16,902 bases of DNA from NCBI GenBank assembly GCA_002384765.1, contig DGBM01000145.1, forward strand, positions 30,852 to 47,753, read 5' to 3'. Position numbers and translations under genes: made by a program. Each line of letters starts with the position of its first letter. Positions within the stretch are counted from its first letter, which is position 1. Positions 2,351 to 6,345 of this stretch are shown here, one piece after another. The DNA is from Demequinaceae bacterium UBA4004 (GTDB taxonomy: Bacteria; Actinomycetota; Actinomycetes; Actinomycetales; Demequinaceae). The notes beneath the pieces are model-generated. The model was not told where the DNA came from, made no database searches, and was given only the letters and a program-made list of their open reading frames with translations.

Positions 2351-2380
2351 CCCGCCGCGCCCTCCACTTCTAGAGTGAGG

Positions 2381-2408
2381 TGAACCGCAACCGCACACGT
2401 CTCGTGAT
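2381..2408 (+). promoter_or_regulatory. ECF (SigL-like) autoregulatory promoter of the sigma/anti-sigma operon
   Basis: TGAACC (2381-2386), 16 bases, CGTGAT (2403-2408). This resembles the promoter I recall for mycobacterial SigL (TGAACC-N16/17-CGTG followed by variable bases). The start of transcription would fall near 2415, which rules out the upstream in-frame ATG at 2380 and fits the GTG at 2479. It implies that the sigma factor transcribes its own operon. Confidence 0.78.
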
Positions 2409-2478
2409 CAGGGCAGGGACCGACGGGCGCGACAGCGGTTCGGCTCCGGGACGACGCGCACGACTGAGGAGGCGCACG

Positions 2479-2985
2479 GTGACGGTCGACAGGCAGTCGG
2501 TCCTGCGCGAGCTGCACGACCTGCACGCGGCGGTGATCTGGCGGTACGCGATGCACTTGACGCGCAACACGTCGACCGCGGACGACATCGTGCAGGAGAC
2601 GTTGCTGCGCGCGTGGCGCACACCCCGGATCCTCGATCAGGATCCGGCGTCGGTGCGCCCGTGGCTCTTCACGGTGGCGCGCAATCTGGTGATCGATGAC
2701 GCCCGTAGCGCGCGCCGCAGACACGAGGTTGCGGTGGAGGACCCGCCCGACCGAGGCGTTGAGGATGGCAGCGACGGCCTCTTCGACATCCTGCTGGTGG
2801 AGGAGGCGCTCCAGGCGCTCAGCGAGGACCATCGCGCCGTGATCGTGCGCGCCTACTTTGGAGGTCAGAACACTGTGGAACTTGCGGCGGAGCTCAACAT
2901 TGCGGAGGGTACGGTGAAGTCCCGGCTCCACTATGGACTCCGTGCTTTACGCCTGGCACTTCAGGAAAGAGGGGTGACCCGATGA
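2479..2985 (+). CDS. ECF sigma factor (SigL/SigK-like)
   Basis: This is a group 4 (ECF) sigma factor of about 168 residues that directs RNA polymerase to a small regulon. Region 2 is clear: TADDIVQETLLRAWR (2.1-2.2), then RPWLFTVARNLVIDDAR (2.3-2.4). Region 4 is ALSEDHRAVIVRAYF, then TVELAAELNIAEGTVKSRLH, a helix-turn-helix that reads the -35 element. The start is GTG 2479 because GAGGAGG at 2466-2472 sits six bases upstream. A longer frame from 2380 would begin inside the promoter. The stop overlaps the anti-sigma start (ATGA, 2982-2985), a classic coupled pair. Predicted targets are its own operon, the divergent DUF2231-like gene and the downstream lipoprotein, all with TGAACC-N16-CGTG promoters. 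Confidence 0.92.
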   Translation: MTVDRQSVLRELHDLHAAVIWRYAMHLTRNTSTADDIVQETLLRAWRTPRILDQDPASVRPWLFTVARNLVIDDARSARRRHEVAVEDPPDRGVEDGSDGLFDILLVEEALQALSEDHRAVIVRAYFGGQNTVELAAELNIAEGTVKSRLHYGLRALRLALQERGVTR

Positions 2986-3674
2986 GCGCCGACCACGAGA
3001 TGTATGCCCGGTGGGATGCGAGTTATGTGCTCGGCGCGTTGACGCCAGGGGATCGCCGCGCGTATGAGGCGCATCTTGAGGAGTGCGAGCGCTGCCGCGT
3101 GTCCGTGGCGGAATTCGCTCCGATGCCAGGGTTGCTGGCGCGAACCCGGCCCGAGGTGGACGGGTGGGACGACGCGCGGGCGGCGGGCCCGCCCGCCAAC
3201 CTGGTCGACCTCGTCACGGAGCGTCGCCTGCGCCGCGATCGACTGCTTCGCAAGCGCGCGATTCTTGGTGTTTCAGCTGTGGCGGCCGCGGTCGCGCTCG
3301 CCGTTGCGGTACCCATGGCGCTCCTCGGCCCGTCCGCGCCCGAACCGGCACGGACGGTGGCCATGACGGCCGTGGGTGACTCGACCATGGCGGTCACGCT
3401 CGAGCTCAGCCCGGTCGCGTGGGGCACCCGGATCGGCGTGACGTGTGACTATCCGGCGGGCGATACGTGGTCGGGCGAGAACGGCCCGTGGGCCTACAGC
3501 TTGGTGGTGACGGACGAGGCCGGGGTCACCAGTCAGGTGTCGACGTGGACGGCCGTGCCGGGAAGGACCATCCACCTGGATGCGGCGACGTCCGTTTCCC
3601 TCGATGAGATCGCGTTGATTCAGGTGCGGTCGGTTGGCGGCGAGCCCATTTTGGCAAGTTCGCTGACGGGCTGA
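2982..3674 (+). CDS. Zinc-finger anti-sigma factor, single-pass membrane protein
   Basis: This is the anti-sigma partner of the upstream ECF factor, 230 residues. The N-terminal cytoplasmic domain (residues 1-80) has the ZAS signature H31-x3-C35-x2-C38 (HLEECERC) that holds the sigma factor and can respond to oxidation. After a basic stretch (RRLRRDRLLRKR, 81-92) a single membrane span covers about residues 94-116. The remaining 115 residues are extracytoplasmic, predicted beta-rich, and resemble the RskA/RslA-type sensor tail. It shares four bases with the sigma gene, which keeps the two in balance. The signal is unknown; by analogy with RslA it could be thiol-redox or envelope stress. Confidence 0.9.
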   Translation: MSADHEMYARWDASYVLGALTPGDRRAYEAHLEECERCRVSVAEFAPMPGLLARTRPEVDGWDDARAAGPPANLVDLVTERRLRRDRLLRKRAILGVSAVAAAVALAVAVPMALLGPSAPEPARTVAMTAVGDSTMAVTLELSPVAWGTRIGVTCDYPAGDTWSGENGPWAYSLVVTDEAGVTSQVSTWTAVPGRTIHLDAATSVSLDEIALIQVRSVGGEPILASSLTG

Positions 3675-3707
3675 CTCCGGACTTTCGGGACGTCTTCGTC
3701 GATCCGG

Positions 3708-3735
3708 TGAACCGCGGGGGGCTCGGCGACGTGTT
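3708..3735 (+). promoter_or_regulatory. ECF (SigL-like) promoter of the lipoprotein gene
   Basis: TGAACC (3708-3713), 16 bases, CGTGTT (3730-3735). This is the third copy of the promoter in this module and the closest to the SigL consensus. Transcription would start near 3742, leaving a leader of about 38 bases that carries the GAAGGGA ribosome binding site before ATG 3780. Confidence 0.78.
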
Positions 3736-3779
3736 CCAGGTGACCGTGCCCGCGGTCGCATCGAACGAAGGGAACCCCC

Positions 3780-4304
3780 ATGAACTCACGAATCGCCGTC
3801 GGCATGGCAATATCAGCGCTCGCCCTTCTTGGCCTGTCGGCGTGTTCGGCAGATACGGCAGGCTCCAGTACATCGTCGGCGGCTCCTGCCACGAGCACCC
3901 CTGAGGCCTCGTCCATGACCACGTCGGAGCCCACCGAGTCGATGGATGACTCCGGCGTTGCGCTGGAGACGGCCGAGTCCGCACTGGGCACGATCGTGGT
4001 GGACGGCGACGGCATGACCGTCTACCAGTTCGACAACGACACCCAGGGTGGAGACTCGTCCACCTGCACGGGCCAGTGCGCCACGAACTGGCCAGCAGTG
4101 CCCGGCAGCGCCGCCCCCGAACTCGAGGGCATCACCGGAACGGTGGCGACCATCATCGGAATCGATGGCGAACCACAACTGACCCTCAATGGGTGGCCGC
4201 TGTACTACTTCGCCGGCGACGCGGCGCCGGGTGACACGAACGGTCAGGGCGTCGGCGGCGTGTGGTGGGTCCTGACGCCCGCAGGGGAGCTCATCAAGGG
4301 CTGA
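3780..4304 (+). CDS. Secreted-repeat lipoprotein (PF03640 / COG4315-like)
   Basis: This is a predicted cell-surface lipoprotein of 174 residues. The signal peptide ends in a lipobox LSAC with the lipidated cysteine at residue 22. A Ser/Thr/Ala-rich linker follows to about residue 60. Two copies of the secreted repeat of unknown function come next: the first holds GTIVVDGDGMTVYQFDND and CTGQCATNWPAV, the second LTLNGWPLYYFAGDAAPGD and a VGGVWWVLTPAG end. This is the standard arrangement of the family, whose biochemical role is unknown. GAAGGGA lies a few bases before the ATG. The preceding TGAACC-N16-CGTGTT promoter places it in the sigma factor's regulon even though it also lies directly downstream of the anti-sigma gene. 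Confidence 0.88.
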   Translation: MNSRIAVGMAISALALLGLSACSADTAGSSTSSAAPATSTPEASSMTTSEPTESMDDSGVALETAESALGTIVVDGDGMTVYQFDNDTQGGDSSTCTGQCATNWPAVPGSAAPELEGITGTVATIIGIDGEPQLTLNGWPLYYFAGDAAPGDTNGQGVGGVWWVLTPAGELIKG

Positions 4305-4366
4305 CATCGGGGGTCCCGCGCACGGTAGTGTGTCGCCAGCGACGAGGTGTTGGCTGACTGGCGCGC

Positions 4367-4394
4367 GGGAATACCTCGCCCCTCACTGGGGTTG
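4367..4394 (+). promoter_or_regulatory. SigR/SigH-type promoter before the thiol oxidoreductase gene
   Basis: GGGAAT (4367-4372), exactly 18 bases, GTTG (4391-4394). This is an exact match to the promoter recognised by the thiol-oxidative-stress sigma factors SigR (Streptomyces) and SigH (mycobacteria). Transcription should start near 4400, giving a leader of about 68 bases before GTG 4468. The 163-base gap from 4305 to 4467 otherwise holds no gene that I can support. Confidence 0.72.
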
Positions 4395-4467
4395 TGGCTG
4401 GCAGAAGGTGCGCCATGTCCCCGACGGACCTCCATTCTGTGAAGATCTTGAGCGTCTGAGGAGCCCC

Positions 4468-5124
4468 GTGATTGCCGTTGATGTCTGGTCCGATGTGGCG
4501 TGCCCGTGGTGTTACCTTGGCAAGCATCGTCTGGAGACGGCGATCGACGCCTCGGGCGAGGATGTGCAGGTCACGTGGCACAGCTACCAGCTGAACCCGA
4601 CCATCCCGCGGGGCGAGCACACTCCCCACGCGGAGGCGCTGGCCAAGAAGTTACAGGCGCCCGTGGAGAAGATCCGGGCGATGAACCAGCGACTCATCGA
4701 CCTGGGCGCCGCCGAGGGCGTCGAGTACAACTTTGACCGCTACGTGCAGGCCAACACGCGAGACGCCCACCGGGTCATTCACTACGCGCAGGAGCAGGGG
4801 CTGGGCAACCAGATGAAGGACCGCCTGATGCGCGGCCAATTCACCGAGGGCGCCGTGGTGGACGATCCTGGCCAGCTCGCGGCCATGGCCGCCGAGGTGG
4901 GCCTGAACGCCGCCGAGGTGCGCGCGATGCTCGAGACCGATGCCTACGACGACGCGGTCCAGGCCGACATCGATGAGGCAGCTGCCGCGGGCGTGACGGG
5001 CGTGCCCTTCTTCGTGTTCGACAGCACGTACGCGATTGCCGGTGCGCAGCCCGTTGAGACGTTCGCGGAGGCGCTGCGTCGGTCAGCGGAGCAGCGTTCT
5101 GCGGAGCGCCAAGCGACCGCGTGA
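4468..5124 (+). CDS. DsbA-family thiol oxidoreductase (FrnE-like)
   Basis: This is a 218-residue cytoplasmic thioredoxin-fold protein of the FrnE/DsbA group. The redox motif C12-P-W-C15 sits in DVWSDVACPWCYLGK near the N-terminus. The cis-proline loop is GVTGVPFF (P180), and the helical insertion between them is full length. FrnE proteins act as disulfide isomerases or oxidoreductases and protect against thiol oxidation. The GTG at 4468 is preceded by GAGGAG with four bases between, and no signal peptide is present, so an upstream in-frame ATG at 4330 inside the promoter region is rejected. The exact SigR/SigH-type promoter upstream agrees with a role in thiol stress. It is convergent with the heliorhodopsin gene, 19 bases apart. 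Confidence 0.92.
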   Translation: MIAVDVWSDVACPWCYLGKHRLETAIDASGEDVQVTWHSYQLNPTIPRGEHTPHAEALAKKLQAPVEKIRAMNQRLIDLGAAEGVEYNFDRYVQANTRDAHRVIHYAQEQGLGNQMKDRLMRGQFTEGAVVDDPGQLAAMAAEVGLNAAEVRAMLETDAYDDAVQADIDEAAAAGVTGVPFFVFDSTYAIAGAQPVETFAEALRRSAEQRSAERQATA

Positions 5125-5127
5125 CCC

Positions 5128-5141
5128 GCCGCGGGCGCGGC
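5128..5141. terminator. GC-rich hairpin between convergent genes
   Basis: GCCGCG-GG-CGCGGC is a perfect inverted repeat in the 19-base gap between the stops of the thiol oxidoreductase and heliorhodopsin genes. It has no T-run on either strand, so it is a weak candidate for a two-way terminator or pause site. Confidence 0.35.
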
Positions 5142-5143
5142 CC

Positions 5144-5902
5144 TTATGAGGCGAGCGCCCCGGAGAACACCTGCCATGCCAGCAGCGTCTTCGCGACGAG
5201 GCTCAGCACGATGTAGGTGCGCTCCCCGCGAAGGTAGTCAGCCCACTTGCCCTTGGCGCGGTACTGCTTCCACTGCACCACGCCGAACGCGTTGAAGAAC
5301 ACGAACAGCGACACGATGATGCCCCACACGAACCCGGGCACCGTAGCGTCGGACGTGTTGCCGGGCCCGGCGAGGTTGATGGCGATGATGAGCCACGGGA
5401 CGATGCCGACCATGCTGCCGAAGATGAAGGGCACCAGGTCGCCGTCGCCGGGGGTGGTGTAGCGCTCCTGGAGCCAGCCGAACAGGATCATGCTGGCGTT
5501 GACCGCGAAGAGGCCCGCGAGCGCGGCGAAGTTGGCGAGGCCGTTGAGCTGCAGGATGAGCACGATCATGATCGAGGAGGAGAGCGAGTACTCGACCCAT
5601 CGGAACGTGTTGTGGTGCTCGCGGAGGCCGGCCACATATCGAGGGAAGAACGTGGGCGAGACGATGAGGAAGTGGAAGAACGCGGAGATCAGCAGGAATC
5701 CGGCCACCGCGTACCCGATGTTGATGTCGAAGAGAGTGATCGGGTCGCCGTACGCGCCCGAACCGGGTGGTCCGGTGAGGTACGTCGCGGTGACGGGCAG
5801 CGCGGCGTCGTTGGCGAGGAAGAGGATAGCGACGAACGACGCGAGGTGCAGCAGGCCTGCTACCAGGTTGAACGGGCGGAGCTTGGCAAGTGCGGTGTCC
5901 AT
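5144..5902 (-). CDS. Heliorhodopsin
   Basis: This is a retinal-binding, seven-helix light-sensing membrane protein of the heliorhodopsin family, 252 residues. The Schiff-base lysine is K238 in LSLVAKTLLAWQVF (helix 7). The counterion glutamate is E104 in RWVEYSLSSSIM (helix 3). The two conserved histidines of the internal polar cavity are H19 and H77 (LLHL, AFFHF). Helix 5-6 motifs such as MILFGWLQE and FNAFGVVQWKQY also fit. In the family the N-terminus faces the cytoplasm and the photocycle is slow, suggesting signalling rather than ion pumping. ATG 5902 is chosen because GAGGAGA lies just upstream; an earlier in-frame ATG at 5944 lies within the leader. A GGGAAT-N18-GTTG promoter precedes it. 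No retinal-synthesis gene is in the window. Confidence 0.95.
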   Translation of the reverse strand: MDTALAKLRPFNLVAGLLHLASFVAILFLANDAALPVTATYLTGPPGSGAYGDPITLFDINIGYAVAGFLLISAFFHFLIVSPTFFPRYVAGLREHHNTFRWVEYSLSSSIMIVLILQLNGLANFAALAGLFAVNASMILFGWLQERYTTPGDGDLVPFIFGSMVGIVPWLIIAINLAGPGNTSDATVPGFVWGIIVSLFVFFNAFGVVQWKQYRAKGKWADYLRGERTYIVLSLVAKTLLAWQVFSGALAS

Positions 5903-5948
5903 GGGGTCTCCTCGGTGTTCGGCGGTGAACTGCGCCTTTGACACTCGA

Positions 5949-5976
5949 CAACACCCCAGGTAATGAGCGGATTCCC
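5949..5976 (-). promoter_or_regulatory. SigR/SigH-type promoter before the heliorhodopsin gene
   Basis: On the minus strand GGGAAT (5976-5971), exactly 18 bases, then GTTG (5952-5949). It is an exact match to the SigR/SigH consensus and identical in design to the one at 4367-4394. The transcript would start near 5941 and carry a leader of about 40 bases with a good ribosome binding site. It begins seven bases after the stop of the upstream minus-strand gene. Confidence 0.72.
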
Positions 5977-5982
5977 GGCGAA

Positions 5983-6267
5983 CTAGGGCGCGTCCTCGCC
6001 AAGCTCCCCGCGCAACACCTGGGCCCAGTCATCGTCGGCTAGGCCGGCGCGGTCCAGCAGGTCCCGCCAGTCCACTTGGGCGTGTTCAAGCGCATCCTGA
6101 AATAGCGAATAGTTACCTCGCGCCGCGATCAGAATGGCCGCATGGATGCGTTCCGGATCCACCTGAGGCGTGATCTTGAGCCTTTCCAGCGTGTTGAGCA
6201 TCGGCGGCGTGCTGGTCCCAAAATCGTGGGCGAGACGTTCGGCGACGCGGTGGCTGGGGACGGGCAT
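5983..6267 (-). CDS. Conserved hypothetical protein
   Basis: This small soluble protein (94 residues) has no signal or membrane segment. It begins SHRVAERLAHDFG and ends HAQVDWRDLLDRAGLADDDWAQVLRGELGED. The block IHAAILIAARGNYSLFQDAL followed by VDWRDLL-x-x-AGL resembles a family of short actinobacterial proteins of unknown function that I recognise by pattern only. Predicted structure is all-helical. ATG 6267 gives the best conserved start, but no clear ribosome binding site precedes it, and the frame is open further upstream. It lies just upstream of the heliorhodopsin on the same strand, but that gene has its own promoter. Confidence 0.7.
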   Translation of the reverse strand: MPVPSHRVAERLAHDFGTSTPPMLNTLERLKITPQVDPERIHAAILIAARGNYSLFQDALEHAQVDWRDLLDRAGLADDDWAQVLRGELGEDAP

Positions 6268-6345
6268 GGGAGGCAGTTTCGCATGCCGACGGTCGTGCGC
6301 GGCACAGGGGCCGCCAAGACGTCCGTCCCGTCGCACACGTGGAAT

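Follow-up and report, generated by a model that had tools for sequence, protein, structure and literature searches.

A conserved SigR-type promoter upstream of heliorhodopsin genes in the Demequinaceae suggests membership in a thiol-oxidative stress regulon

Introduction

The closest described systems to the locus reported here are the SigR-RsrA pair of Streptomyces and the SigH factors of mycobacteria and corynebacteria. Streptomyces SigR is autoregulated. Disulfide stress releases SigR from RsrA (cf. PMC4960319). The promoters used by these sigma factors carry the boxes GGAAT-N18-19-GTT (PMC9205884, PMC10012870). In C. glutamicum, promoters of the GGAAt-GTT form are used by SigH only, and those of the GGAAC-cGTT form are read by both SigH and SigE (PMC10012870).

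Most proposals for the function of heliorhodopsins (HeRs) rest on the genes that surround them. Actinobacterial HeRs have been tied to oxidative-stress genes encoding glutaredoxin, GSHPx, catalase, and peroxiredoxin by Bulzu et al. 2021 (PMC8612252), who call the control of HeR transcription unclear and in whose main text the words promoter and sigma are absent. Other reported HeR partners are glutamine synthetase (PMC9529153), an ABC transporter (PMC11109279), and photolyase (PMC9769723). In the literature searched, which includes few subscription papers, we found no rhodopsin gene described as having a SigR or ECF promoter.

Here we analyze a stretch of 16,902 bases from a member of the Demequinaceae, referred to as the window, and compare it with related genomes (G) and loci (L). 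All positions are those of the window.

Results

The heliorhodopsin gene and its neighbors

The HeR gene (5144..5902, minus strand) encodes 252 amino acids that match the heliorhodopsin profile PF18761 with an E-value of 1.4e-92 and 309.9 bits over residues 8-250, as well as NCBIfam NF038020. The profile match spans the full length of the protein, which places it in the heliorhodopsin family. Residues E104 and K238 are invariant in an alignment of 19 sequences, and K238 is presumably the retinal lysine. The first in-frame start of the open frame is a GTG at 5944, at about the predicted transcript start; because the N terminus MDTALAKLRPFNL is conserved, we set the start at the ATG at 5902, which is preceded by GAGGAG. 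The closest named HeRs belong to Demequina and are 86% identical to that of the window. The gene is patchily distributed in the family, being present in 9 of the 44 Demequina-group genomes and in 11 of the 47 genomes of the family. Two plasmid records of HeRs were also found, and one HeR gene is annotated at positions 4155-4922 of a 10.5-kb Lactococcus petauri plasmid (NZ_CP141705.1).

Convergent to HeR, with 19 nt between the gene ends, lies a gene for a DsbA/FrnE-like thiol oxidoreductase with a CPWC motif (4468..5124, plus strand; 218 amino acids; PF01323, E-value 3e-48), hereafter FrnE. Further to the left, three genes stand in a row on the plus strand (2380-4304), encoding an ECF sigma factor (2380-2985), an adjoining zf-HC2 anti-sigma protein, and a Lipoprotein_15 secreted-repeat lipoprotein. 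The ECF factor matches the NF007227 subfamily and not SigH_actino.

Two exact promoter motifs in the window

The original prediction stated that GGGAAT-N18-GTTG occurs twice, properly oriented, before the FrnE and HeR genes, and that no other exact copy exists on either strand. A pattern scan of both strands of the whole window confirms these statements, including the coordinates and strands, and both sites lie at a distance from the genes that suits a promoter: the only two exact matches lie at 4367-4394 (plus) and 5949-5976 (minus), with no third copy on either strand. In the HeR promoter, the -35 box GGGAAT occupies 5971..5976 and the -10 box GTTG 5949..5952, both on the minus strand; the motif begins 74 nt upstream of the HeR start, and 46 nt separate GTTG from the ATG at 5902. 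In the FrnE promoter, the corresponding boxes lie at 4367..4372 and 4391..4394 on the plus strand, with 73 nt from GTTG to the GTG start codon at 4468.

In 200 dinucleotide shuffles of the window, the exact motif occurred 0.01 times on average and never twice (0/200). The looser pattern GGGAAY-N15-20-GTT also finds just these two sites and is not significant by itself, with a shuffle mean of 0.70 and at least two matches in 36 of the 200 shuffles. A further expectation was obtained from the real rate of GGGAAY-N18-GTTG in ten Demequinaceae genomes, which hold 152 such sites against 27 for a reversed control; at this rate, a stretch of 16.9 kb should hold 0.10 sites, and the probability of two or more is 0.005.

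Conservation of the site upstream of HeR genes

A total of 199 HeR loci or pieces were reduced to 177 unique ones, of which 170 have at least 120 nt of upstream sequence and were scanned; the seven with short upstream sequence, G005 among them, and eight partial HeR places lie outside the count. A lack of conservation upstream of orthologues was one of the outcomes that the original prediction had named as refuting it. Instead, GGAAY-N17-19-GTT stands before the HeR gene at 9 of 11 loci from the Demequinaceae, compared to 1 of 159 other HeR loci, and a tenth Demequinaceae locus (G001) carries the variant GGGAGT-N18-GTTG, which brings the count to 10 of 11. The remaining one, the Demequina-group genome G036, has no site upstream of its HeR gene. 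With the reversed pattern, the frequencies are 0/11 and 5/159, respectively.

The 159 loci from outside the family are mostly acidimicrobial and other actinobacterial ones, together with some saccharibacterial and two viral loci, neither of the latter having a site. The sole match among them (L104, GGAAC...CGTT) corresponds to about the chance rate. We also considered the site as a general rule for HeR genes and rejected it, since the frequency outside the Demequinaceae does not exceed chance or the reversed control. The predicted SigR-type wiring is thus bounded to the Demequinaceae, and other HeR lineages are probably under different controls.

The ten Demequinaceae sites all have a spacer of exactly N18 and begin 65-77 nt before the start codon; their -35 boxes read GGAAT in seven cases, GGAAC in two, and GGAGT in one. 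With these ten promoters aligned on their boxes, mean pairwise identity reaches 0.87 (-35 box) and 0.91 (-10 box), compared to 0.34 for the spacer and 0.29-0.31 for the flanking sequence. The boxes are maintained while the sequence between and around them has drifted to near-chance similarity. This footprint bears on the notion that the sites are chance matches, or functionless remnants inherited by close relatives, for which one could cite the abundance of the motif in these genomes, where some copies apparently have no gene to serve, and the lack of significance of the looser pattern in the window. We consider such an origin very improbable, given that both boxes persist amid diverged sequence, that the motif keeps the same place relative to the start codon in all ten loci, and that two distant HeR lineages carry it when the per-region chance of GGAAY-N18-GTT is 0.0035.

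Two HeR lineages carry the same promoter

One supported clade comprises the HeRs from the window and from G001-G005, G016, G020, and G037; it is nested in a larger clade whose other members are mainly acidimicrobial and in part saccharibacterial. G036, G194, and G762 have HeRs that are placed elsewhere in the tree, with 51-59% identity to the window group, and a tree that holds all twelve HeRs of the family as one clade is rejected (p-AU 3.6e-5). Despite belonging to this distant lineage, the HeR genes of G194 and G762 are preceded by the exact GGGAAT-N18-GTTG. Since both of these lineages carry the site, HeR has apparently been brought under a putative SigR-type promoter twice within one family.

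The setting of the gene in G194 and G762 differs from that in the window group. Judging from the translations, the next upstream gene on the HeR strand encodes a tRNA-synthetase-like protein; it adjoins HeR in G762, and in G194 two small genes of the opposite strand lie in between. In both genomes (L239 and L293), HeR also adjoins genes whose translations resemble small secreted, pilin-like proteins.

Changes in the neighborhood also speak to whether most HeR transcription might come from an upstream gene or from some other promoter, with the SigR-type site playing a minor part and the window's ECF factor possibly involved. In the window, a co-directional open frame, whose extent (5983-6270, minus strand) is our own reading, ends 6 nt before the -35 box of HeR, and the ECF and zf-HC2 pair is at a distance of about 1.5-3.5 kb, an arrangement that would suit such transcription. 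Yet in G016, G037, G001, and G003 the relatives of this small open frame are found 0.9 to 3.4 kb upstream of the HeR gene; in G004 the relative is 5.7 kb from HeR, and none was found near HeR in G002. The site stays in all these genomes. Relatives of the ECF sigma and anti-sigma genes were found beside HeR in none of the 11 compared loci. Transcription chiefly from elsewhere is therefore improbable, and the ECF pair was rejected as the reader of the HeR promoter, both for its subfamily and for its absence beside HeR in the compared loci.

SigR as the probable reader of the promoter

The presence of SigR and RsrA was read in the genomes of relatives. SigH_actino (TIGR02947) scores over its curated cut-off in 42 of 44 Demequina genomes and in all four of G194, G762, G005, and G036. 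RsrA adjoins sigR, as indicated by a TIGR03988 match in G020 and by motif in 28 of 30 sigR loci, a reading that gave spurious frames for L181, L190, and L236. The sigR gene is itself preceded by RGGAAT-N18-GTT in all 27 loci tabulated, as well as in G194 and G762; four of the 30 loci (L181, L195, L197, L199) lack an anchor and are outside the tabulation. One sigR locus (L173) has a second candidate site with GGGAAC, which was left out of promoter scoring along with the duplicate L236 and with L285, identical to L282.

The next-closest sigma gene is SigE-like, and in 20 of 20 Demequina loci (L269-L288) its nearest site is GGGAAC-N17-CGTT (GGGAACAT...CGTT); more distant GGAA-type sites, present in six of these loci, were disregarded. 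That this ECF gene carries its own GGGAACAT...CGTT promoter in 20/20 genomes is in itself a clean autoregulatory signature.

By log-odds scores between weight matrices of the two promoter types, 8 of the 10 HeR sites are SigR-type, with 8.4 to 23.9 bits in favor of SigR over SigE. The two GGGAAC sites score -0.7 bits (G037), assigned to neither type, and -4.2 bits, the latter (G002) leaning towards SigE, and G001 has a weak SigR match, 5.5 bits over background. The HeR sites do not follow the sigR consensus at every position: all ten have G or T immediately before GTT, where most sigR promoters (22/27) have C. The features of a SigR-type promoter, namely GGAAT, GTT, a spacing of 18-19 nt, and a promoter-like distance from the gene, are all found at HeR, and the SigE-type combination of a GGAAC -35 box with a cGTT -10 box is missing from eight of the ten sites, those of G002 and G037 having GGAAC without cGTT. 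The distinction between T and C at -31 agrees with the SigH and SigH/SigE promoters measured in C. glutamicum (PMC10012870). The SigR/SigH-type assignment made in the original prediction is supported, in that the motif also precedes sigR and most HeR sites score as SigR-type.

These comparisons also make it unlikely that the SigE-like envelope-stress factor is the main reader of the promoter, or shares it with SigR, in which case HeR would answer envelope or general stress. The two kinds of site do share GGAAN-N18-GTT, the G002 and G037 sites have GGGAAC, that of G002 with a SigE-like score, and GGAAC-cGTT promoters of C. glutamicum are read by both factors (PMC10012870). However, eight of the HeR sites have T in place of the C found in all 20 SigE-like autopromoters, none of the ten has C before GTT, and the same eight favor SigR by the scores given above.

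FrnE, its leader hairpin, and furA-katG

The FrnE gene is, as far as its upstream regions indicate, a separately conserved, predicted SigR-type target. RGGAAT-N18-GTT precedes it in 21 of the 26 Demequina loci examined (27 were found, L267 being outside), and 21 of 22 FrnE sites are SigR-type by log-odds, the site of G017, at -1.4 bits, being assigned to neither type. The FrnE and HeR genes converge in the window and in G001, G002, G016, and G037, and FrnE does not adjoin HeR in every genome that has HeR. No FrnE relative was found at an E-value of 1e-40 or lower in G003, G004, and G020; because the HeR promoter is kept there, it is not a by-product of FrnE.

A hairpin lies in the FrnE 5' leader, just 3' of the promoter. 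In the window it reads AGGTGCGCC-ATGTCCCC-GACGGACCT (4400..4441, plus strand) and matches a covariance model with 53.3 bits, a score that is not independent, since the window is among the sequences from which the model was built. The hairpin has up to 12 base pairs and a conserved GTCCC loop and occurs in 11 Demequina loci (the window, L242-L250, and L252); the window's copy is imperfect, several relatives have a longer, better-paired version, and in some a T run follows. Covariation is modest, with 3 of 12 pairs changed on both sides and 88.5% of cells paired. Over 44 genomes, the model gives ten matches with an E-value of 1.8e-9 or lower, which are the ten FrnE leaders used to build it, and 12 weaker matches (E-values of 1e-5 to 0.009), some of them on the opposite strand of the same hairpin. 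An Rfam search of positions 4300-6100 gave no match with an E-value of 1 or lower. Candidate roles for the hairpin are those of an attenuator, an RNA element, and a DNA operator. The same leader contains a short open frame in the window (4415-4459, plus strand), MSPTDLHSVKILSV followed by a stop codon; in G002 and G037, the ATG at the equivalent place shares the FrnE reading frame.

The neighboring furA-katG operon had been thought to fit the same theme. This part of the original prediction was not borne out: relatives of furA-katG are beside HeR only in the window and G016, and were not found within 7 to 10 kb on each side of HeR in G001, G002, G036, and G037 or within about 6 kb on each side in G003 and G004, the flanks of G020 (2.9 kb on one side), G194, G762, and G005 being too short to judge. 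We therefore dropped furA-katG as part of a unit with HeR and FrnE.

Other sites in the genomes of the family

The ten Demequinaceae genomes contain about 15 GGGAAY-N18-GTTG sites each. The gene context was inspected for all 36 sites in G037 and G020, a set that mixes SigR- and SigE-type sites and in which many have no well-placed gene. The well-placed genes include sigR, the SigE-like gene, FrnE, HeR, and a gene for a ClgR-like regulator, whose NF041677 match is below the curated cut-off. Ten downstream proteins were chosen for Pfam naming, which gave short-chain and F420-type oxidoreductases, an AhpC/TSA peroxiredoxin, MsrB (SelR), MauE/DoxX, an aldo/keto reductase, an Fe/Mn superoxide dismutase, a ferric-reductase-like protein, DUF5701, and an MFS transporter.

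Discussion

Our results indicate that the HeR gene of the Demequinaceae probably belongs to the SigR (SigH) regulon of thiol-oxidative stress, a reading to which we assign a probability of roughly 0.86. Within this family, SigR control of HeR is well supported as a prediction from sequence alone. In the mechanism that we propose, disulfide stress would oxidize the zinc anti-sigma factor RsrA, and the freed SigR would direct RNA polymerase to GGGAAT-N18-GTTG before HeR and to its counterpart before the convergent DsbA/FrnE gene. SigR would thus transcribe HeR, and thiol oxidants would be expected to induce it. The opsin would then be put into the membrane together with thiol and peroxide enzymes, the redox enzymes with such sites in relatives including a peroxiredoxin, a superoxide dismutase, and an aldo/keto reductase, and it might serve as a light-dependent part of the oxidative-stress response.

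The source of the retinal was considered separately. An RPE65-type retinal-forming oxygenase (PF03055) was found in none of the 11 HeR genomes (G001-G005, G016, G020, G036, G037, G194, and G762), 2 of 14 controls being positive, and Blh (PF15461) in none of the 47 genomes of the family, in a search where no positive control gave a match. Because the known retinal-forming oxygenases were not found in these genomes, whose completeness is unstated, the retinal of HeR may come from outside. A more tentative idea, which we regard as possible and rather doubtful, is that HeR, two distant genes for it having been wired to SigR, is a redox-gated effector instead of a standing light sensor, made only once thiols are oxidized. 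With no retinal-forming oxygenase found, its opsin may capture outside retinal and thereby couple light to the stress response or trap a reactive aldehyde.

For a protein that has mostly been interpreted through its neighbors, a sigma-factor promoter that is conserved and was apparently acquired twice indicates more plainly under which conditions the cell wants it. The interest of the result lies in which protein would join the known SigR regulon. What is already known is the link between HeR and oxidative stress by gene neighborhood; what is new, relative to the literature searched, is the predicted SigR-type promoter on HeR itself.

The system described here resembles SigR-RsrA of Streptomyces and SigH of mycobacteria and corynebacteria in its promoter boxes and their spacing, the sigR-rsrA pair, autoregulation, and redox targets. 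It differs in having HeR as a putative target, no rhodopsin target having been found for this regulon in the literature searched. With the work of Bulzu et al. (PMC8612252) it shares the connection between HeR and oxidative stress, which was drawn there from neighboring genes and co-transcripts and is drawn here from a sigma-factor promoter that persists when the neighbors change. The reported partner systems likewise present HeR as a regulatory or helper membrane photoreceptor; their partners are neighbors in the same operon, with promoters predicted by generic tools (PMC9529153, PMC11109279), whereas the HeR gene of the Demequinaceae appears to have a stress-type promoter of its own, and the next gene downstream is convergent to it.
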